From positions 1 through 18,380 of the forward strand of contig PBKF01000031.1 in NCBI GenBank assembly GCA_002722105.1: 18,380 bases of DNA. Reading direction: 5' to 3'. Below, piece by piece: positions 7,537 to 18,380 of this stretch (position 1 is its first letter; every line of letters starts with the position of its first letter). The translations under genes and the position numbers were made by a program. The stretch is from Fidelibacterota bacterium (lineage in GTDB: Bacteria > Marinisomatota > Marinisomatia > Marinisomatales > UBA1611). The notes below the pieces were generated by a model. It was not told where the DNA came from, ran no database searches, and worked only from the letters and a program-made list of their open reading frames with translations.

Positions 7537-10500
7537 TTATTTTGTGTTGTCTCTTTTAAATCTTAATATCTTCTTATTAAAAAATAAATTTATATCCTCG
7601 ATGATCATATAACTGGTTGGTACTAGAATTAGAGTAATTAAAGTTGCAAATAGGACACCGAATGCCAATGATATTGCCATTGGAACTAGAAATTTGGCCT
7701 GTACACTCTTTTCTATTAAAAGAGGTAGTAAGCCAACAAATGTTGTTATGGAAGTAAGTAAAATAGGCCGAAATCTTCTCGACCCGGCAACCAAGGCAGC
7801 ATCAATAGCACTTTTCCCATCTTCTCGCCTATATCGATTAATAAAATCCACCATCACTAAGCTATCATTCACTACAACTCCAGATAAAGCTACAACTCCT
7901 ATAACTGATAAAACCGCTAAATTCATACCCATAATTAGATGGCCAATTACTGCACCTGTAAATCCGAATGGAATTGCAGACATGATGATCATAGGCTGTA
8001 AATAGGAACTAAATGCTACTGCTAGTAAAATGTAAACAACAAATAAAGCCAAAACAAAATTTTTCGCAATGGATCCTAATGTATCTCGCTGTTCTCTTTG
8101 TTCTCCTTCAAAACTATAATTAACACTTTGATAATCCTTTAAAAGTGGGATGATGTGCTCTCTTTCAAATTTGGATAAAATTTCATTTGCATTGGCTTCA
8201 GTTAAGTCTACATCTGCCGTAATATTTATAGATCTTTTTCTGTCTGTTCTATTAATAGTTGAAAAGCCGCTAGATATCTGACCTTCTGCTATTTGACCAA
8301 GTGGAACTTCTATATTCTCACCTACTCTGATATTCATTTGTTCAAGGTTATTTATACTTATTCTTTCTGTTTTTGGATACCGTAAAAATACTTTTACTTC
8401 ATCTCTTCCACGTTGGATTCGCTGTACTTCTTCACCATAAAATGCCTGGCGTACTTGCCTTGCGAGAGAAGCCATCGTAATGCCATAGTTTTGTGCTTCG
8501 GTTCTGAGTTTCAATTTGATTTCATCTTTTCCAGCACTGAATGAATCTTCTATATCAAAAATACCGGAGTATGTTTGTAGCTTATTTTTCAGAATTTCAG
8601 TTACATCTTTGAGATCATCTCTGTTTATACTAGATAATTGGACCTCAATTGGAGCTCCGGTTGTAAATAAATCCGAATCAAATGTAACCTGCTTTATTCC
8701 AGGGATTGGCCCGGTAAGTTCTCGCCATAATTTTGAGATCTTACTTGTACTTAAAGGTCTGTCTTCACCAGGCGCTAATTCAATTACGCATTCAGCTAAA
8801 TGTGACCCAAAAAAAGTAGCATCCAAATTACCTGGACCTCTAGATGATTGTGTTTTAATTGGTTGATCTCCTGCAGTGGAAACCATATGGATAAATATTT
8901 CCTTTTCAGGGTAAAGAACTTTCAGTGTATCTTTTAATTTATATGCAGAGTTTTCAATTTGGTCCAAGCCAAGCCTTGTTACAGATACAGGTGTCCCTTC
9001 AGGATATTCAATACCTGCAATGACAATATCAGCTTCTAATGGAGGGAAAAAATTAAATCTTAAAATTCCACTTGCTACAATTCCAATTGAAAGAATAAAA
9101 GTAGATATAGAGATAGCTACTGTGTTTGCACGATGTGTAAGAGACCATTTTAAAATAGGTGTATAAACATTTCTGATGAATAATTGCAAGTAACTATGAA
9201 TTGTACTCTGCAGACGATCCCAACGTTCCATAAAGGGATTTTTCATCTCGGATTTATTTTCACTCATATGTGCTAAATGGGCAGGTAGGATAGTTAAAGA
9301 TTCTATAAGTGAAAACATTAAAACTAAAATGGTTACAATCGGGATAATTTCCCAGATATTTCCTGTAGCACCTTCAACCAGAATCATTGGCGAGAAAGTC
9401 ACCATTGTAGTAAGAACAGCAAAAATTACGGGTTTGGCTACTTGATATGCACCTTCAAGAGCTGCATCGGGTCCATTTAATCCTCTTTTCCTAAAAATAT
9501 GAATATTCTCTCCTACAACAATCGCATCATCAACGACTATACCGAGAACTAAAATGAAAGTGAATAGTGAGATCATATTTATGGATATATCAAAAACAGG
9601 TAAAAGCCAGAATCCACCCATAAAGGATATTGGAATTCCCAACGATACCCATCCGGCTAATTTAGGTTTTAGAAAAAGAGCAAGAATAATGACCACAAGC
9701 ATCAATCCTAAGTATGCATTTTCAGTCAATAATTCTATCCTGCCTCTTAGAATAACCGATTCATCTTTCATTGCAGTAAGTGAAACACCCGGAGGCATAA
9801 GTGGTTTTTTATTTTTTAGATAATCATGTACTGAATCAGCAATTTCAAGTGCATTCTGCTCACCAGTTCTATAAATACGAATTAATCTGGCTGGTTCACT
9901 GTTGAACCTTACATCGTACTCAACATCTTCGAAGCCATCCTTAATTTGAGCAATATCATGCAATAGGAGTGTGCTGCCATCTGGTAAGGATAATACCGGT
10001 ATTGCGCCAAAATCGTCACCGGAATATGCCTGCCCCTTTGATCTAATTAAGATTTCACCATTTTTTGATTCAATAGCTCCCCCTGGGACATCCATAGATG
10101 AGGACTTAATTCTATTTGCAATATAATTGAAGGTTAAAGCATATTTTTTAAGTGTATTCCCAGAAATTTCTATGGATATTTCACGAGGCTTTTTACTGAG
10201 TTTAGTCTGGGTAATACTAGGCAAGTCATTTACCTCATCACGTATTTTTTCAGCGATGTTTCGTAGGCTTATTTCATCAACATTTCCATGAACAGCAATA
10301 GTGATAACTTCTGGCTGGCCTTCAAAACTCCGAACCGTTGGTTTTTCTGAGCCTTCCGGAAATGATGTAATAGCATCAACTTGAGACTTGACTTCATCCT
10401 TGACTTCATCTAAATCATAACTATTCTCAACTTCAATATTTATGGATCCATAACCTTCATTGGATGAACTTGTAATTCTTTTTATACCATTTATTCCTTG

Positions 10501-10716
10501 AACCTGTTCTTCTACTTTTACACAAATTGATTCTTCAATATCTTCGGGAGATGCACCAGGATAGACCACGGATACATTTATGATGGGTATTGTTATATCA
10601 GGAAAAACTTCCATTCGAAGTCGTGAAAGCGTAAAAAACCCTGCAATAATGATAAATACCATTAAAAGGTTTGCTGCTACAGTATTGGCAATGAACCAGC
10701 GAATTATATTTTTCAT
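7537..10716 (-). CDS. RND efflux transporter permease (HAE1/AcrB-like)
   Basis: A 1059-residue inner-membrane pump subunit of full family length. The N-terminus has the first membrane helix (residues 10-32), then the porter-domain start SRLRMEVFPDITIPIINVSV and YPGASPEDIEESI. Helix 4 carries the proton-relay pair in LGIVVDDAIVVGENIH, Asp396 and Asp397 by count. The second half repeats the layout: large periplasmic domain, then helices ending in SFRRFRP-like RRFRPILLTSITTFVG. In helix 10, SGVVVNDSLVMVDF has Asn at the position of the AcrB relay lysine (Lys940), a departure seen in some RND subgroups. It exports amphiphilic compounds across the envelope with the adaptor gene 4 bases upstream and the outer-membrane factor before that. 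The substrate is unknown. Confidence 0.95.
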   Translation of the reverse strand: MKNIIRWFIANTVAANLLMVFIIIAGFFTLSRLRMEVFPDITIPIINVSVVYPGASPEDIEESICVKVEEQVQGINGIKRITSSSNEGYGSINIEVENSYDLDEVKDEVKSQVDAITSFPEGSEKPTVRSFEGQPEVITIAVHGNVDEISLRNIAEKIRDEVNDLPSITQTKLSKKPREISIEISGNTLKKYALTFNYIANRIKSSSMDVPGGAIESKNGEILIRSKGQAYSGDDFGAIPVLSLPDGSTLLLHDIAQIKDGFEDVEYDVRFNSEPARLIRIYRTGEQNALEIADSVHDYLKNKKPLMPPGVSLTAMKDESVILRGRIELLTENAYLGLMLVVIILALFLKPKLAGWVSLGIPISFMGGFWLLPVFDISINMISLFTFILVLGIVVDDAIVVGENIHIFRKRGLNGPDAALEGAYQVAKPVIFAVLTTMVTFSPMILVEGATGNIWEIIPIVTILVLMFSLIESLTILPAHLAHMSENKSEMKNPFMERWDRLQSTIHSYLQLFIRNVYTPILKWSLTHRANTVAISISTFILSIGIVASGILRFNFFPPLEADIVIAGIEYPEGTPVSVTRLGLDQIENSAYKLKDTLKVLYPEKEIFIHMVSTAGDQPIKTQSSRGPGNLDATFFGSHLAECVIELAPGEDRPLSTSKISKLWRELTGPIPGIKQVTFDSDLFTTGAPIEVQLSSINRDDLKDVTEILKNKLQTYSGIFDIEDSFSAGKDEIKLKLRTEAQNYGITMASLARQVRQAFYGEEVQRIQRGRDEVKVFLRYPKTERISINNLEQMNIRVGENIEVPLGQIAEGQISSGFSTINRTDRKRSINITADVDLTEANANEILSKFEREHIIPLLKDYQSVNYSFEGEQREQRDTLGSIAKNFVLALFVVYILLAVAFSSYLQPMIIMSAIPFGFTGAVIGHLIMGMNLAVLSVIGVVALSGVVVNDSLVMVDFINRYRREDGKSAIDAALVAGSRRFRPILLTSITTFVGLLPLLIEKSVQAKFLVPMAISLAFGVLFATLITLILVPTSYMIIEDINLFFNKKILRFKRDNTK

Positions 10717-10720
10717 TATT

Positions 10721-11851
10721 TTACTCTATTCTGACAGGCATTCCATCAACATAGGAAGATAATCTTGTAATAAGTACTTTATCATCTTTTTCTAATCCTT
10801 TTGCGACAAAAGCATAATCATTTTCCAATCGAACCACTTCTACAGATTTTTTTCGCAATTTGAGATCCTGAACCACCCAGATCATATCATCTTTTACTGT
10901 ATTTCTGGGTACAATTGTAATGTTGGAAAAAGAAAGGCCTTCAATTTCAGCATTTACAAACATTCCAATTTTCACACCCTTATTATTTTCATTATTTGTT
11001 ATCGATGCTATAACAGATATCATTCTGGTTTTTGGATCAATTTCTGATTCAGATCGAACAATAGAGCCTTTTGCTAGAAAATCTTCACCACCGTAATTTG
11101 AAATAAGACGAACAAGGGGACGTTCATTCAATTTTATTGTTGTACCATCAATAGGAATACCTAAAAATGGAATATCCTTATCGGCAATAGGTAATCTTAC
11201 TTGAAAACTTGCTGTATTGTAAATGTTCATGATACGTGTACCAGGAATAAGACTAGTGCCTAGTGATACCATCTTTTTTCGAACTCTTCCATTAAATGGA
11301 GCTATGATCAATGTCCTTTCCAAATTACGTTTTGACTGTTCATAGGCTGCTTCTGCAGCAGCTAAAGTCGCTCTGGCTTGAGCCAGTTGTGGTTCACGTA
11401 GAGTAAGGCTCGATGCATCACCTTTGCCTACACGTTTCCATTCAATTTCAGCCAATTTAGACTCTGCTTCTTCTCTTTGTAGAGCAAGTCGAGCTTGGAA
11501 AAGATTGGATTCCGTTGAAATAAGGGCTAATTCGTAGTCCCTTTTCTCAATTATTAAAAGAGTATCACCTTGAATAAAGCCAGCACCATCATGAAAATTT
11601 TCAGAAACCCATGTGACTTTTCCGCTGACTTCCGATGTTACAGAAATTTCATGTTCCGGTATTATAGTACCTTGGGAACGTATTTTTGATCGAACTTCCG
11701 ATGGGTAGGCCATGATTATTTCTACCAATTGGGGGATGACCTTAGGTCTCTGGAATTTGACTTCAGGTTTTAACTTAATCATCATTACGAAGATTAATAT
11801 ACTTCCTACTAAGATAATTACGGGACTGTATTTTTTTATGTGAGCTTTCAT
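10721..11851 (-). CDS. RND periplasmic adaptor (membrane-fusion protein, HlyD/AcrA family)
   Basis: A 376-residue adaptor. An N-terminal membrane anchor (residues 9-26) is followed by the two halves of a lipoyl domain: HEISVTSEVSGKVTWV through GDTLLIIEKRD (about 64-104) and LIIAPFNGRVRKKMVSLG (about 181-198). These flank an alpha-helical hairpin (about 106-180) rich in Glu, Ala and Arg. Beta-barrel and membrane-proximal domains follow. There is no lipobox cysteine, so it is anchored by its transmembrane segment. It connects the RND permease to the TolC-type channel in the periplasm. The stop lies four bases from the permease start and the gene begins 15 bases after the outer-membrane factor, so all three are one transcript. 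Confidence 0.93.
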   Translation of the reverse strand: MKAHIKKYSPVIILVGSILIFVMMIKLKPEVKFQRPKVIPQLVEIIMAYPSEVRSKIRSQGTIIPEHEISVTSEVSGKVTWVSENFHDGAGFIQGDTLLIIEKRDYELALISTESNLFQARLALQREEAESKLAEIEWKRVGKGDASSLTLREPQLAQARATLAAAEAAYEQSKRNLERTLIIAPFNGRVRKKMVSLGTSLIPGTRIMNIYNTASFQVRLPIADKDIPFLGIPIDGTTIKLNERPLVRLISNYGGEDFLAKGSIVRSESEIDPKTRMISVIASITNNENNKGVKIGMFVNAEIEGLSFSNITIVPRNTVKDDMIWVVQDLKLRKKSVEVVRLENDYAFVAKGLEKDDKVLITRLSSYVDGMPVRIE

Positions 11852-11866
11852 TTTCTATTATTTTTG

Positions 11867-13285
11867 TTAATGAGATGAACCGCCAAGGGCTAAAATCAAA
11901 TTTAATCTTGTATCAATTTTTGCTTTATTTGCAGATATTAACTGAGAGCGTGCCTGAAACCATCTTTGTTGGCTGTCTAAAACAGCAATTAAACCAATCA
12001 GGCCAGAATCATATCGTTCTATTGATAGTTTATAAGCTGCTTCTGCCTGTTTTGCAGCTTCAGAATAAGAATCCACTAAAATAGTATTTGAATTTTCTGA
12101 AAATAGTGATTGCTCAACTTCCGAAAATGCTGTTATTATTTTTTTTACTAAATCCTGTTCGGCAATTTTCACTGCTTCAGTTTGCATGTTTTTATTGGCA
12201 ACTAAGCTTCTACCGCGAAATAAAGGGAGTGTAACAATTATTCCTTGTGACCATACCTGATAGTCCTGATTTAAGATATCATTTAGTTCATTTGACGATG
12301 TACCAGCTGAACTAGTTAATGAGACACCAGGAAAAAATGAACTGATTGATTCTGCTCTTCTATATGATACAGCTTCTAGGTTAGATAATGCGGATTGAAT
12401 ATCCGGTCTACGATCTAATATATCTGCCGGAATCAGAGGCTCTACTTTCGGTAAATTTGTTGGTAATACAGGCCTAATCAAATAACTGCCGTTAGGATAT
12501 CTGCCAAGCATGACTTCTAGTCGTCTTATATTTCCTGTGTAAACTTGGCGTCTAGTCTCTAAAATAGCCTGTGATGATGAAACGGATGATTGAGTAAGTC
12601 TGAAATCCAGAGAAGAGCGTAGCCCTTTTTCATATCTCGCTGAAACTATTTGTGCCAATTGATTAATACTTTCCAAAGTTTCGTTTGCCAATTCAAATTG
12701 CTGGTATGCTTCAACAGTAGTATAGTAGACTTTTGCCAATTGAACCATCAATGAAAAGCTCAGGTAAGACATTTCATAGTTCAATGATTCAAAATCCTTT
12801 TTTGCCGCATTGGTTTGATTAAATACCCTACGCCATAAGTCTAATTCCCACTGCATAGAAAGATTTAAACCAAAATTGTTAGATGTGAAACTAGTTGGTT
12901 GGTTATTATTTCCTTCGTTTTCTCCTCCACCAAAAAAATCATCAGAGAGTCCAAAGGCCGCAAGATTTTGTTGCCTACTATTCCCATTGAAACCAAGGCT
13001 GGAAGATGGAAATCTTGGCGCATTATTGATGATATTTATCTGTTTAGCCATTTCCAGTCTTGATGCTATCGTTTTTAAATCTGGACTATTAGCATTGAAT
13101 TCATTAAAAACTTTATTTAAGGTAGTATCTTCGAAAGTTTCCCACCATTCACCGGTCAAACCAGAAGTAGGTGGAAAATTGTACTGCCATTCTACCGGAA
13201 TTATATCAATAATATCCAAACTTTGAACAGAAAATTTTTCCGCACAAGAGGTAAAAATAAGTGAAAGATAGATTATATTTTTCAT
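11867..13285 (-). CDS. outer-membrane efflux lipoprotein (TolC/NodT family)
   Basis: A 472-residue outer-membrane factor. The N-terminus is a lipoprotein signal (MKNIIYLSLIFTSC) with Cys14 as predicted lipidation site. The body shows the two OEP repeats: long helices with MQWELDLWRRVFNQTNAAKK (residues 144-163), a hallmark of NodT-type factors, and a second part with the LDRRPDIQSA motif. A Gly/Asn-rich stretch (about 115-130) lies in the first extramembrane strand region. It forms the trimeric exit duct of the pump encoded by the next two genes. It is the first efflux structural gene after marR, with 34 bases between them occupied by a palindromic operator-like site nine bases before this ATG. 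Confidence 0.93.
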   Translation of the reverse strand: MKNIIYLSLIFTSCAEKFSVQSLDIIDIIPVEWQYNFPPTSGLTGEWWETFEDTTLNKVFNEFNANSPDLKTIASRLEMAKQINIINNAPRFPSSSLGFNGNSRQQNLAAFGLSDDFFGGGENEGNNNQPTSFTSNNFGLNLSMQWELDLWRRVFNQTNAAKKDFESLNYEMSYLSFSLMVQLAKVYYTTVEAYQQFELANETLESINQLAQIVSARYEKGLRSSLDFRLTQSSVSSSQAILETRRQVYTGNIRRLEVMLGRYPNGSYLIRPVLPTNLPKVEPLIPADILDRRPDIQSALSNLEAVSYRRAESISSFFPGVSLTSSAGTSSNELNDILNQDYQVWSQGIIVTLPLFRGRSLVANKNMQTEAVKIAEQDLVKKIITAFSEVEQSLFSENSNTILVDSYSEAAKQAEAAYKLSIERYDSGLIGLIAVLDSQQRWFQARSQLISANKAKIDTRLNLILALGGSSH

Positions 13286-13293
13286 ATAAGGTA

Positions 13294-13309
13294 AGTTGAT
13301 GGTTCAACT
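13294..13309. promoter_or_regulatory. candidate MarR operator between marR and the outer-membrane factor gene
   Basis: AGTTG-ATGGTT-CAACT is a 5-bp inverted repeat with a six-base spacer, nearly identical to the site upstream of marR (same arms; spacers ATGGTT and TAGGTT share GGTT). It fills most of the 34-base gap between the marR stop and the outer-membrane factor start. A MarR dimer here could block an internal promoter or impede elongation into the pump genes. Confidence 0.6.
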
Positions 13310-13319
13310 AATATTTATT

Positions 13320-13769
13320 TTAATTTATTTTAAGGTTATTATATATTTTTGTTAAAATATTTTTCAGAGTTTCAATTTCTTGATCATTAATTCCGGTTCG
13401 TAGTTCATTTCTAGTTTGTTCCATAACAGGCAGTGCATCGAGAAATAATTTTTTTCCTTTGTTGCTTAAAACTATTCGCTTAATTCTGTGATCTAACTGG
13501 TCTGAAACTCTGACTACTAAATTCTTTTTCTCCAAGGTGTCAATTATCTTAGTAACACTAGTCTTATCTTTGCCGCAGTAATCTGCTATATTTTTTTGAG
13601 ATATACCTTCATTTTTCCAAACTGGGCCTAAAACTATCCATTGATCTAGAGATATATCTAATTTATAATTATGTGAATTCTGTACGAATCTCTTTGTGGA
13701 TAATTTCTGTATCTGACCAATCAGCATGAATAGGTCTAAATCACTTTCTAATTTTTCATTATTAGGCAT
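13320..13769 (-). CDS. MarR family transcriptional regulator
   Basis: A 149-residue winged-helix regulator of usual MarR length. The DNA-binding core spans about residues 42-105: LDQWIVLGPVWKNEGISQKNIA, the recognition-helix segment KDKTSVTKIIDTLEKKNLV, and the wing with the conserved DHRIKRIVLS pattern (Asp93, Arg95). Helices at both ends form the dimer interface. A single cysteine (Cys65) sits just before the recognition helix, which could allow redox control but proves nothing. It is the first gene of the efflux locus. Palindromic sites lie 20 bases before its start and immediately after its stop, so autorepression with relief by a pump substrate is the likely logic. Confidence 0.93.
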   Translation of the reverse strand: MPNNEKLESDLDLFMLIGQIQKLSTKRFVQNSHNYKLDISLDQWIVLGPVWKNEGISQKNIADYCGKDKTSVTKIIDTLEKKNLVVRVSDQLDHRIKRIVLSNKGKKLFLDALPVMEQTRNELRTGINDQEIETLKNILTKIYNNLKIN

Positions 13770-13991: not shown

Positions 13992-15101
13992 ATGAAGAAG
14001 ATAATGAAGGTGGTAATTTTAATTATATTGATTTTTTCTGCTATTTTTCCTGCTATGCTATATTTAAATCCGAATTTTGGAAGCAATCCATCAAATTACC
14101 AGAAAGCCGGTTTTGCAAATTTTAAAAATTACGATAATGGCAAATTTCAAAACCTTGAAAAATTTGAAATGATGACTGGAGAAATATCCATATTTGAATT
14201 TTTCAAGAAAGACACAAGCAGAAAACCAAAAAAAGAGCTTAAACAAGAGCCTATTCAAATCCAGGAATTCTGTAAAACAGGCTCAAAAAGATTAAAGTTT
14301 TCCTGGCTCGGTCACTCGGCATTTATATTAAATATTAATAATAAAATAATTCTACTGGATCCTATGTTTGGTAAATATGCATCACCAATACCAATACCAT
14401 CTTTAAAACGATACAGCTCTGGAATACCTTTTTCGATTGATGAATTAACTTCAATCGATGCAGTAATATTTTCGCATGATCATTATGATCATCTGGATTA
14501 TTCGACAATCAAGCAAATAAAGAATAAAGTAAAAAAATTTTATGTTCCCCATGGTTTAGGAAATCATTTAAAAAGGTGGGGAGTAAATGACCATAAAATT
14601 CACGAGTTAAATTGGAATCAAGCCATAAAACATGATGATATTGAATTTGTATGCCTACCTGCATTACATTTTTCTGGAAGAGGGCCATTTAATCGTAATA
14701 GCACTCTTTGGGCATCATGGGCAATAAAAAGTCCTTACGGTAATGTTTATTTTGGTGGTGATAGCGGTTATGGAAAGCATTTTGTTGATATTGGTCAACA
14801 ACATGGACCGTTTAATTTTTCTTTCTTAGATTGTGGACAATACAATGGGTCCTGGAAGTATTCGCATATGGTACCAGAGGAATCAGTACAAGCATCTATT
14901 GATTTGAACAGTAATTACTTTATTCCTATTCACTGGGCTGGATTTACCTTGGCACTCCATTCCTGGACGGAACCCGTTGAAAGGTCACTAAAACATGCTG
15001 AAAAATTAAATCAGAAGATTCTGACACCTAAATTAGGACAAATAGTTACATTACATAATGAAATGAATGATTATAATTCTAATTGGTGGCGAGGGATATA
15101 A
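13992..15101 (+). CDS. metallo-beta-lactamase fold hydrolase, NAPE-PLD/UlaG-like
   Basis: A 369-residue protein with an N-terminal hydrophobic segment (residues 5-24: signal peptide or anchor), a polar linker to about residue 98, then one MBL domain. The domain opens with FSWLGHSAFIL and LLDPMFGKYASP, the pattern of the N-acyl-phosphatidylethanolamine phospholipase D group. The metal-binding motif is SHDHYDHLD, His162-x-His164-x-Asp166-His167. Other predicted ligands are His226 (PALHFSGRG), Asp257 (FGGDSGYG) and His314 (PIHWAG). All are present, so a catalytic dinuclear zinc enzyme is likely, perhaps a phosphodiesterase acting on lipids in the envelope. The ATG at 13992 has no Shine-Dalgarno sequence. 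It diverges from marR and could share its control region. Confidence 0.88.
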   Translation: MKKIMKVVILIILIFSAIFPAMLYLNPNFGSNPSNYQKAGFANFKNYDNGKFQNLEKFEMMTGEISIFEFFKKDTSRKPKKELKQEPIQIQEFCKTGSKRLKFSWLGHSAFILNINNKIILLDPMFGKYASPIPIPSLKRYSSGIPFSIDELTSIDAVIFSHDHYDHLDYSTIKQIKNKVKKFYVPHGLGNHLKRWGVNDHKIHELNWNQAIKHDDIEFVCLPALHFSGRGPFNRNSTLWASWAIKSPYGNVYFGGDSGYGKHFVDIGQQHGPFNFSFLDCGQYNGSWKYSHMVPEESVQASIDLNSNYFIPIHWAGFTLALHSWTEPVERSLKHAEKLNQKILTPKLGQIVTLHNEMNDYNSNWWRGI

Positions 15102-15197: not shown

Positions 15198-16316
15198 ATG
15201 CTTAGACCTATTTTATTATTCCTTTTATTCAGCCTAATACATTCTCAAAGTGTAGATTGGGATGCGGATACAGTACGGACATCTTATTTGTCTTATAAAG
15301 TTGAATTATACTCAGATGGTTATGAAATTCCATGGGGAATGTCATTTTTACCGGACGGTGATTTATTGGTAAGTGATATTTCAGGTAAAATTTATCGAGT
15401 GGAACTTAACGGCAGAAAAAAAGAAAATATTTCTGGTATCCCCGAAGTTTTCTATAAAGGCCAGGGTGGCCTACTTGATGTGGAAGTACATCCAGAATTT
15501 GAAGAAAATAATTTAATCTATTTTTCATTTAGTGACTTGGATGGTAAAACTTCTTTTACTTCAATTGCTAGAGCTGAACTAAAGGGAAATTCTTTAGTTG
15601 GGTTAAATATAATTTATAAAGCTCCGAAAGAGCATTTTTCCAGACGGCGTCTTCATTTTGGCAGTAGGCTACTATTCGATAATGAATTCTTATATTTTAC
15701 GGTGGGAGATCGAGGTGAGATGGATGATGCTCAAGATCTATTTAAACCTAATGGTAAAATTCATCGTATTTATCACGATGGGAATATCCCTGCAGATAAT
15801 CCATTCGTCAACAGAGATGGTTCTAAAAGCTCCATTTGGTGTTACGGTAACAGAAATCCACAAGGATTAGCAAAAGACATTAATGGAAATATTTGGGAAT
15901 TAGAGCATGGACCTAGAGGGGGCGACGAATTAAATCTGATCCAAAAAGGAAATAATTACGGCTGGCCTGTCATAACCTACGGTATAAACTATAATGGTAC
16001 CAAAATAACTGATAAAACACATATGGATGGGATGGAACAGCCAGTTTGGCATTGGACCCCAAGTATTGCAGTATGTGGAATGAAATTTTATTATGGACAA
16101 TCATTCAATCCATGGTCAGGTGATATTTTAGTAACATCCTTAAAATTTGAATATCTTGAAAGAGTTATAATTAATAATAATAAAAGAATAGGAAGTGAAA
16201 TTATTTATGAAGCAGGAAGCAGAGTCAGAGATGTGGAAGTTGGTCCAGATGGTAATATTTTTGTCGCATTAGAAGGACCGGGAAGAATTGTCAAATTGAC
16301 CAGAATATATGAATAA
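15198..16316 (+). CDS. exported PQQ-dependent sugar dehydrogenase (glucose/sorbosone dehydrogenase family)
   Basis: A 372-residue exported protein with a signal peptide (MLRPILLFLLFSLIHSQS) and a six-bladed beta-propeller of the GSDH family, as in YliI/Asd-type aldose dehydrogenases. Successive motifs are IPWGMSFLPDG (44-54), GQGGLLDVEVHPEF (88-101), RLHFGSRLLF with the likely catalytic His153, GDRG (170-173), YGNRNPQGL (216-224), EHGPRGGDELN (236-246) and NNYGWP (252-257). The C-terminal blade ends with RVRDVEVGPDGNIFVA. It should oxidise an aldose or sugar aldehyde in the periplasm using PQQ. No PQQ-synthesis gene is in the window, so the cofactor would come from elsewhere. It lies 96 bases after the MBL hydrolase gene on the same strand. 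Confidence 0.92.
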   Translation: MLRPILLFLLFSLIHSQSVDWDADTVRTSYLSYKVELYSDGYEIPWGMSFLPDGDLLVSDISGKIYRVELNGRKKENISGIPEVFYKGQGGLLDVEVHPEFEENNLIYFSFSDLDGKTSFTSIARAELKGNSLVGLNIIYKAPKEHFSRRRLHFGSRLLFDNEFLYFTVGDRGEMDDAQDLFKPNGKIHRIYHDGNIPADNPFVNRDGSKSSIWCYGNRNPQGLAKDINGNIWELEHGPRGGDELNLIQKGNNYGWPVITYGINYNGTKITDKTHMDGMEQPVWHWTPSIAVCGMKFYYGQSFNPWSGDILVTSLKFEYLERVIINNNKRIGSEIIYEAGSRVRDVEVGPDGNIFVALEGPGRIVKLTRIYE

Positions 16317-16351
16317 TATATTTAATCCACTTTCAAATATAAAATTTTGAT

Positions 16352-16624
16352 TTAATCTCCTGCAAAAGGTGTACCAAAGAATCCTACGGCCAGTTCTCCC
16401 CAGATAAGAAGAAAAAGTAAAATGATACTAAATGTATATATAAACTTTAAATATTTTTCATTCCCGGTTTTATTAATTCTAGCAACTATAAATCCAACCG
16501 TTCCAAGCATAAATCCCATCAAAATGAAATTAAAGGTTTACCAATAAACCTCATTTGTGAAGTACATTGATATTAATGGGAATAAAAGGTCTAGTACCAT
16601 AAACAGTAATATCCGGATAATCAT
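16352..16624 (-). pseudogene. small membrane protein gene interrupted by one in-frame TAA
   Basis: Reading the minus strand from ATG 16624-16622 gives 28 codons (MIIRILLFMVLDLLFPLISM, then YFTNEVYW), then TAA at 16540-16538. The same frame continues without shift for 61 more codons (TFNFILMGFMLGTVGF, IVARINK, YLKFIYTFSIILLFLLIWGE, LAVGFFGTPFAGD) to a TAA at 16354-16352. Together they resemble a family of small Bacteroidota-type membrane proteins with three hydrophobic segments, which have an aromatic-rich TNEVNW-x-x-F-x-F junction and an AVGI-FGTPFAG-like end. The stop falls exactly at that junction. One base change (TAA from a sense codon) or an assembly error would explain it. Alternatively two short proteins are made, the second from ATG 16522-16520. 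The family match is from memory. Confidence 0.6.
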
Positions 16625-16775
16625 AATAAAAAGAGGTTATGCTTTTATTATCTAAGAAATACATTTTTATGTTATCAAAGTAGAACTTTCAAAATTTTTA
16701 CATAATAGTCTAATCAAATTTGAGTATGGCGCAGGTATTGAACCGTTATATCTCTTTGAAAAAGGTTGAGAAAAT

Positions 16776-18380
16776 ATGAGATTTATATTAATATTAGTTT
16801 ATTTGTTGATTTATAGTTCATTAAAAGCAGAATGTTCAGATTTGGATTCTCTTGAATGTGCTGATTGGCCTCAATACTGTGAATGGAATGTAGCTTCTGG
16901 TCAGTGTCAAGAAATAGGTGGAGGTGGTGACAATGATGGATTTGGACCATTTGAATATGAAAGTATCACTGAGTCTGATGGATTAACGGATGGTCTCGAT
17001 TATCTTAATGGAATATTATTTTATCCTATAAATGCTATTTTACCATATAGGTCTATTATCTTTACACCTGGGTACGGGGGTGGTAGTGAAGATATTCTAA
17101 TGTGGTCAGAGTTTTTTGCTTCACATGGATTTATTGGTATGTCTATCGGCCCTAATGACCCTATTAATGAATGGCATACAGGTAGGGCCTATGGACTCTT
17201 AGATGCAATACAGACAATTAAGGAAGAAAATGTAAGAAGTGAGTCACCTATTTTTGGTCAAATTGATACAACTAATTTCATTCTTGCAGGTCACTCCATG
17301 GGTGGTGGAGCATCTCAAATAGCACTAACAATTGAAAGTATGCATCACGAGCATATTTCGGGTGCAATTGCCTTAAATCCGACTATATTAATAGAAGATT
17401 GTGATTTGTGCCCTGATGGTGATTACTGTATCTGCCTTGTCCCGGAAATGTTAGAGCATGATATTCCGACTTTGGTGATTCCTGGGCAATATGAAATAGA
17501 TGAATTGCCCGATTATGATGGTTTACTAGGACAAGATATCTATTATAATACTACAGATTCAACTATAAAAATGCTATATGAAGTCGAAAATGGTGGTCAT
17601 AGCTCAGCCGAGTTTCCACAGGGTAATGTTCAAAAACTTGCATTATTATGGGCAAAATATTTTTTGTCTGGAGATTCATCACTTTGTGATTCATTATTGT
17701 TACCGCCAGATGATGCGTCTTTATTTTTAACTACACTTGATTGCAATACATCTGAAATAAACACTTTTCAACCTCAAACAAAAGAACAGTTGCAAATGGC
17801 ATTAGATCTATGGATTAATGATAATAATTCTGCGTTGGAAACATATGGGGAAATAAATGAATGGGATATATCCGTCATAACTGATCTATCTAATCTATTT
17901 CAATCAAGAGAATATTTTAATGATGATATAAGTAATTGGGATGTCTCAAATGTTACTGATATGAGCCGAATGTTTTATGGGGCTACCGAATTTAATCAGA
18001 ATATTGATGCGTGGGATGTATCTAACGTTATAAATATGGATGGCATGTTTAAACTCGCTATATCTTTTAATCAAACCTTGTCAAGTTGGGATGTATCAAA
18101 TGTATTTCATTTTAGTGGCATATTTTGTGCTGCTGAAAATTTCAATCAAGATATTTCTTCTTGGGATGTCTCAAATGTACTATCAATGGACATGATGTTT
18201 TATGATGCGGCCAGTTTTAATCAAAATATCGCAGCATGGAATATATCAAATGTTATTGATATGTATGACATGTTCAGCGGTGAGATATTCTTATCTGATG
18301 AAAATAAATGCTTTATTCATACATCCTTTAGTTCAAATGAAAACTGGCCATATGATTGGTCATCTAGCTGCGATGTTGTG
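16776..18380 (+). CDS. secreted cutinase/PET-hydrolase-like alpha/beta hydrolase fused to BspA-type repeats (3' end outside window)
   Basis: An open frame of 535 codons runs to the last base. Residues 1-18 are a signal peptide (MRFILILVYLLIYSSLKA). Residues 20-44 form a small Cys module (Cys20, 28, 35, 44), followed by a Gly/Asp linker. Residues 60-305 are an alpha/beta hydrolase matching the cutinase-like polyesterase/dienelactone-hydrolase group: FTPGYGGG (96-103, Tyr100 at the oxyanion-hole position), FASHGFIG (114-121), GHSMGGGAS (172-180, nucleophile Ser174), PTLVIPG (231-237), and His275 in ENGGHSS. The acid is uncertain (Asp242 or Glu240). A 20-residue insertion with Cys209, 212, 218 and 220 is unusual. 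From about 334 come six DUF285/BspA repeats. AAAGG at 16761-16765 precedes the ATG. Polymer or ester hydrolysis outside the cell is inferred. Confidence 0.85.
   Translation, partial: MRFILILVYLLIYSSLKAECSDLDSLECADWPQYCEWNVASGQCQEIGGGGDNDGFGPFEYESITESDGLTDGLDYLNGILFYPINAILPYRSIIFTPGYGGGSEDILMWSEFFASHGFIGMSIGPNDPINEWHTGRAYGLLDAIQTIKEENVRSESPIFGQIDTTNFILAGHSMGGGASQIALTIESMHHEHISGAIALNPTILIEDCDLCPDGDYCICLVPEMLEHDIPTLVIPGQYEIDELPDYDGLLGQDIYYNTTDSTIKMLYEVENGGHSSAEFPQGNVQKLALLWAKYFLSGDSSLCDSLLLPPDDASLFLTTLDCNTSEINTFQPQTKEQLQMALDLWINDNNSALETYGEINEWDISVITDLSNLFQSREYFNDDISNWDVSNVTDMSRMFYGATEFNQNIDAWDVSNVINMDGMFKLAISFNQTLSSWDVSNVFHFSGIFCAAENFNQDISSWDVSNVLSMDMMFYDAASFNQNIAAWNISNVIDMYDMFSGEIFLSDENKCFIHTSFSSNENWPYDWSSSCDVV
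17856..18290 (+). repeat. six 25-residue BspA/DUF285 repeats within the secreted hydrolase gene
   Basis: Six units of exactly 25 codons begin at residues 361, 386, 411, 436, 461 and 486 of the protein. The core is W-[DN]-[VI]-S-N-V-x(3)-M-x(2)-M-F, with an F-N-[QD]-x-I segment before the next unit. Unit 1 is the most divergent (EWDISVITDLSNLF). The array is followed by KCFIHTSFSSNENWPYDW, a typical cap after such repeats, so the array is probably complete and any sorting domain lies beyond the window. Confidence 0.85.

Follow-up and report, generated by a model that had tools for sequence, protein, structure and literature searches.

The stretch analysed here (the window) comprises 18,380 nucleotides, positions 1 to 18,380 of contig PBKF01000031.1 in assembly GCA_002722105.1 from a Fidelibacterota bacterium. 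At its 3' end, an open reading frame (ORF) of 535 codons starts with ATG at position 16776 and stays free of stop codons up to the window end at 18380. It encodes most of a protein with the fold of polyethylene terephthalate (PET) hydrolases (PETases), in which a glutamate aligns with the catalytic aspartate of these enzymes and which continues into an array of DUF285 repeats. The 3' end of the gene, which the initial annotation had still lacked, is supplied by protein P0001 (635 amino acids), whose residues 1-535 are identical to the window ORF. P0001 reads, in order, signal peptide (judged by eye), four-cysteine stretch with Gly-rich linker, hydrolase, DUF285 array (from residue 331) and a type A sorting domain of the type IX secretion system (T9SS). 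Conservation is given below for the listed relatives, i.e. the best 120 of 253 matches to the hydrolase and the best 120 of 6617 to DUF285, and for 30 proteins from genomes. The gene and its features are:

16776..18380, forward strand: the whole gene as far as it lies in the window (535 of 635 codons, with the final 100 residues outside it)
16776..16829, forward strand: signal peptide, residues 1-18 (judged by eye; helix 2-15 in the model)
16830..16937, forward strand: four-Cys stretch (C20, C28, C35, C44) and Gly-rich linker, residues 19-54
16938..17753, forward strand: PETase-fold hydrolase domain, residues 55-326
17295..17297, forward strand: Ser174, putative nucleophile (conserved in all 120 listed and all 30 genome proteins)
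17382..17465, forward strand: lid, a grown clamp loop, residues 203-230, with C209, C212, C218 and C220
17493..17495, forward strand: Glu240, which falls on the catalytic Asp of PETases in profile alignments with 7pzj, 7cwq and 7vpa
17598..17600, forward strand: His275, putative catalytic base (conserved in all 120 listed and all 30 genome proteins)
17685..17744, forward strand: C304 to C323, aligned with the PET30 C262-C285 disulfide (profile alignment)
17766..18380, forward strand: DUF285 cassette from the FQPQTK cap (six repeats of 25 amino acids, partial C-terminal cap)

The hydrolase domain matched PF12740 (PET hydrolase-like) with 67.7 bits against a cut-off of 28, aligned with PET30 (7pzj) in a single-sequence phmmer comparison with 141.2 bits and matched the PETase/cutinase fold group structurally across its whole length. 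These matches, like those of the repeats, lie far above chance. For NCBIfam NF051441, the equivalog of bis(2-hydroxyethyl) terephthalate (BHET) hydrolase, 33.6 bits were obtained, below the cut-off of 520. The earlier proposal of a secreted enzyme with PETase/cutinase fold is borne out, and the motifs named with it are all present: TPGY (97-100), ASHGF (115-119), GHSMGGG (172-178, with Ser174), LNPT (200-203) and GGHSS (273-277, with His275). In addition to the fold, the DUF285 fusion and the SAR406-type host of that proposal stood, while Glu240, the sequence GHSMGGGA and the Cys-rich lid had been overlooked. Both C304 and C323, aligned with a disulfide described for PET30 (PMC8767016), are present in all 120 listed and all 30 genome proteins. 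The N-terminal cysteines are each kept in 118-120 of the 120 listed proteins, and the N-terminal 39 residues gave no match to Pfam, even at an E-value of 10. This stretch may resemble a PSI domain, which Pfam did not confirm at that threshold.

In profile alignments, Glu240 shares its column with the Asp of PET30 (GQSD), 7cwq (ESD) and 7vpa (END). Glu occupies this position in 119 of the 120 listed relatives and in 26 of the 30 genome proteins, the other four having Asp (three) or being unread (one); L037 reads X at position 240. PET30 and its 119 nearest listed relatives all have Asp (119 by pattern, P0279 by eye). The exchange is accompanied by a rebuilt loop, since the acid loop is at least three residues longer in all Glu rows: the distance from the acid to a conserved aromatic residue is 13 residues in all 12 Asp rows, compared to 16, 17 or 21 in all 40 Glu rows. 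Judged from these alignments, the acid of the triad is most likely Glu240, in place of the Asp of PETases. Ser-His-Glu triads are reported for phthalate-ester hydrolases (PMC9878459).

The second altered element is the clamp, formed by Tyr178 in PET30 and Trp185 in IsPETase (PMC8767016). Its column holds Thr203 in the window protein, in agreement with the absence of the aromatic residue noted initially, and Thr in 116 and Phe in four of the 120 listed relatives. The loop itself has grown into a lid of 28-33 residues in 40 Glu rows compared to 11-16 residues in 10 of 12 Asp rows. All four lid cysteines are present in each of the 120 listed proteins, and the Glu rows L053-L056 have two rather than four. 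Two Asp rows, L057 and L058, have a 29-residue loop with two of the lid cysteines and thereby form an apparent intermediate type with the lid present and the Asp kept. The motifs M2 to M5 described for functional PETases rest on GGGG, the clamp and the catalytic Asp (PMC12224614). The window protein departs from this set, as it has Glu240 in place of the Asp, GHSMGGGA in place of GGGG and, after strand 6, a Cys-rich lid beginning with Thr203 instead of the aromatic clamp loop. It retains [PG]-G-[YF] (PGY, 98-100), the Met following the Ser (M175) and the His. Following the nucleophile, all 120 listed relatives read GGGA, compared to GGGG in 119 of 120 listed PET30-like proteins. The motif DxDxR(Y)xxFxC of PMC12224614, searched as D.D.[RY]..F.C, had no match in P0001. 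At the second active-site disulfide of type II enzymes, G237 and S277 align with PET30 G195 and V232.

A tree of the catalytic domain, as suggested in the initial annotation, places the window protein in a Marinimicrobia Glu clade. Its 53 rows comprise 23 of the 120 listed proteins, 21 of the 30 genome proteins, five Asp-type proteins, three distant loci and PET30; nine genome proteins (duplicate, X-rich or cut) and Asp-type duplicates were left off. The tree was computed by a quick search with Shimodaira-Hasegawa-like approximate likelihood ratio test (SH-aLRT) support and without the lid and acid columns. P0095, which has Ala at the acid position, was not scored, and the other 52 rows need a single Asp/Glu change. 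The Glu clade including P0095 has a support of 92 and is not starred. PET30 and L027 sit on long branches; for L027, the program flagged a grouping with further long branches.

The listed relatives share 52-68% identity with the window domain, and those with a named source are Marinimicrobia. The adjacent GSDH-family gene (PF07995) has a counterpart of 73% identity in Marinimicrobia genome G004, and a fragment in G119 matches it with 86% identity across 145 residues; together, these matches support the SAR406-type host well. An alignment scan of genome contigs gave 29 loci, 21 of them titled Marinimicrobia or Neomarinimicrobiota; of the remaining eight, five are titled 'bacterium TMED...' or 'uncultured bacterium' and three are distant. 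A single-sequence scan of the genome contigs found no relatives, nor did two scans for viral relatives. Of 245 Marinimicrobia genomes, 34 contained matches to the hydrolase; in two of these the E-value was only near 1e-3, and some of the 34 carry Asp-type genes alone. The Asp-type paralogues L059, L060, L062, L063, L064 and L066 combine a short loop with a clamp position that is mostly Trp or Tyr. In a pair of genomes (G162 and G161), Asp-type and Glu-type genes lie about 3 kb apart or less (L061, 1002-1970 and 4232-5404; L065, 1102-2070 and 5018-6190); a division of labour between them is possible. A further Glu-type paralogue group (L022-L024, L026, L053-L056) has GYSTSGGG at the nucleophile, two lid cysteines only and a longer acid loop, of 21 residues in the four rows measured.

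Downstream of the hydrolase domain, the predicted fusion to six DUF285 repeats was confirmed: PF03382 scored 202.6 bits (cut-off 25; E 1.5e-60), TIGR02167 scored 63.6 bits (cut-off 30), and six W[DN][VI]S repeats start at residues 363, 388, 413, 438, 463 and 488 with a period of 25 amino acids, in agreement with direct repeats spaced by 75 nucleotides in the DNA. With regard to the palindromic DNA of PARCEL repeats, one imperfect inverted pair (20 nucleotides, 80%) lies at 18202-18221 and 18337-18356. The array was modelled as a solenoid like that of leucine-rich repeat (LRR) proteins, with a predicted local distance difference test (pLDDT) score of 95.8; a sequence search of the DUF285 part against the PDB gave a best E-value of only 0.11. 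Beyond the window, residues 552-632 of P0001 match TIGR04183 (T9SS type A sorting) with 34.5 bits (cut-off 23). The sorting domain and the LRR-like solenoid of the model make the surface binding proposed initially plausible. P0001 alone among the 120 listed hydrolase relatives carries DUF285, and no second fusion of PF12740 and DUF285 appeared in the remaining 119 of the 120 proteins listed for each part (out of 253 and 6617 matches), which leaves room for rarer fusions. Most members of the hydrolase family carry dockerin-like tails, among them the four nearest tree rows to the window protein, which lack DUF285. Cohesin matches (PF00963) were found in 151 of 245 Marinimicrobia genomes, 136 of them over the cut-off and most of them weak. 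A 474-residue relative in L038 (1048-2472) has a different C-terminal part (NLVGLPL...) with neither a dockerin-like pattern nor a T9SS motif, which by its sequence is another tail swap.

Further genes in the window encode a small alpha/beta hydrolase (299-1099; PF00561), a putative efflux pump, with its outer-membrane factor (PF02321) and a MarR regulator, on the opposite strand (7537-13769), an MBL-fold protein (13992-15101; PF12706) and the GSDH-family dehydrogenase (15198-16316; PF07995). When window ORFs of at least 90 amino acids were compared with the 29 loci (blastp, 1e-8), only the hydrolase matched, and no conserved gene context was found within the flanks compared. Rfam had no match in the window, and a promoter scan of 16200-17000 gave 10 matches compared to a shuffle mean of 4.4.

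We consider it somewhat probable that the gene belongs to a marine SAR406 (Marinimicrobia) bacterium and encodes a serine ester hydrolase that is exported, is displayed or bound via its DUF285 array and has a substrate that is probably not PET. The PETase-fold domain would cleave its ester in the usual two steps, in which Ser174 acts as nucleophile, His275 as base and most likely Glu240 as acid. That the aromatic clamp has been lost and a Cys-rich lid acquired over the cleft points towards a substrate other than a flat aromatic polyester, and together the Asp-to-Glu replacement, the lost clamp and the LRR-like tail suggest a different ester as target; candidates are natural esters of the aliphatic or lipid type and short polyesters. 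The DUF285 solenoid may serve as a portable module for binding or display in the place of the dockerin-like tails of close relatives. Export, and perhaps surface attachment, would be mediated by the T9SS domain at the C-terminus. Several observations weigh against this interpretation. The PF12740 alignment is confined to residues 57-184, and the model has low pLDDT values both in the lid (52 for residues 211-220) and next to the acid (66 for residues 241-250). On the sorting domain, PF18962 (24.9 bits) and PF13585 (25.2 bits) stay below their cut-off of 27, PF13860 is likewise slightly below its own, and SprA was not found in two of the eight genomes searched, including G003, the genome of a close relative. 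The role of Glu240 can be questioned as well: residue 243 is acidic in 119 of the 120 listed proteins (Glu in 98, Asp in 21), P0095 has Ala at position 240 yet keeps Ser, His and the lid cysteines, and alpha/beta hydrolases may have their acid at the end of strand 6 (PMC7034887). That residue 243 or the end of strand 6 provides the acid and Glu240 has a different role is nonetheless rather improbable, as Glu240 stands in the Asp column of every profile alignment, directly after strand 7, and strand 6 ends without an acid, its residue 201 being Asn in all 120 listed proteins. P0095, the sole listed relative with Ala at this position, may use another acid or be an inactive copy.

A true polyesterase, acting on polycaprolactone (PCL), polyesters of the polybutylene succinate type or perhaps PET and held on polymer or cell surfaces by the array, would fit the retained PGY and Met as well as the nearest solved relative PET30, which hydrolyses PCL, BHET, Impranil and PET (PMC8767016). 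Clamp loss by itself decides nothing here, because type III PETases without a pi-stacking clamp exist (PMC12442448). However, catalytic Asp, clamp and GGGG are all altered, measurable PET activity is reported for variants with the M5 motif only (PMC12224614), and two close PET27/PET30 homologues with full triad are active on PCL and BHET but inactive on PET (PMC8767016). We thus regard this alternative as unlikely, and the same applies to PET activity as such. A changed acid and a lost clamp might also be expected of a remnant hydrolase fold in a non-catalytic or weakly active binding protein whose functional part is the array; the invariant Ser, His and glycines around Ser174 in 120 diverse proteins make this very improbable. 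Moreover, the domain is maintained independently of DUF285, since P0001 alone among them carries the array. The suspicion of an assembly chimera, raised in the initial annotation, could draw on the gene running off the window end and on the dockerin-like tails of its closest tree neighbours. It is hardly credible given that P0001 represents five member sequences on seven contigs (the longest of 37,145 bases), that the frame is unbroken with a GC content of 36.5% and 32.4% on the two sides (window 31.7%), and that the junction coincides with a natural cassette start.

As a further reading, slightly less probable than not, we propose that a SAR406 lineage of the PETase fold exchanged Asp for Glu with a longer acid loop, gave up the aromatic clamp for a Cys-pinned lid (by disulfides or metal) and shifted from attack on polyesters in an open cleft to another, common marine ester, its targeting being redirected by exchange of tails (dockerin-like, T9SS, DUF285). 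The clade would be a natural case of Asp replaced by Glu in the triad, with L057 and L058 as an apparent intermediate. PETase-like genes from ocean surveys are readily taken as plastic-degrading potential; Glu-type genes pass the Pfam PETase model without having the three features by which functional PETases are recognised (Asp, clamp and GGGG).

In the open-licence literature, judged from titles and the beginnings of abstracts, we found no description of a Glu-type PETase-family enzyme or clade; no fusion of DUF285/BspA repeats to an esterase or polyester hydrolase was described there, and of the best 12 of 455 matches on SAR406/Neomarinimicrobiota and PET hydrolases, none carried either organism name. 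Among the matches for Marinimicrobia and PETase, only PMC8767016 bears on the subject; it counts 47 of 98 FCB-group homologues of PET27/PET30 as Marinimicrobia. PET30 of Kaistella jeonii and PET27 of Aequorivita share with the window protein the fold, Ser, His, domain-end disulfide and secretion with a T9SS C-terminal domain. They differ from it by their Asp acid, by Phe-Met-Tyr or Phe-Met-Trp as substrate-site residues and by the lack of a lid (PMC8767016), where the window protein has Glu, Tyr-Met-Thr, a Cys-rich lid and, ahead of the T9SS domain, a DUF285 array. Compared to IsPETase (5xjh) and the type I/II cutinase-like PET hydrolases, the window protein lacks the clamp Trp, the catalytic Asp and the second active-site disulfide of IsPETase. 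The Marinimicrobia Asp-type hydrolases belong to the same phylum and fold family and bear dockerin-like tails as the Glu-type relatives do, but differ by their Asp acid, short clamp loop with Trp or Tyr and lack of the four-Cys N-terminal stretch. With the DUF285, PARCEL or 'BspA family LRR' surface proteins (PF03382, TIGR02167; PMC2996958), the array shares repeats of 25 amino acids and 75 nucleotides, family scores over the cut-off and modular occurrence. Unlike in these proteins, it is joined to a serine hydrolase; PF12740 is given for none of the remaining 119 DUF285 proteins listed.
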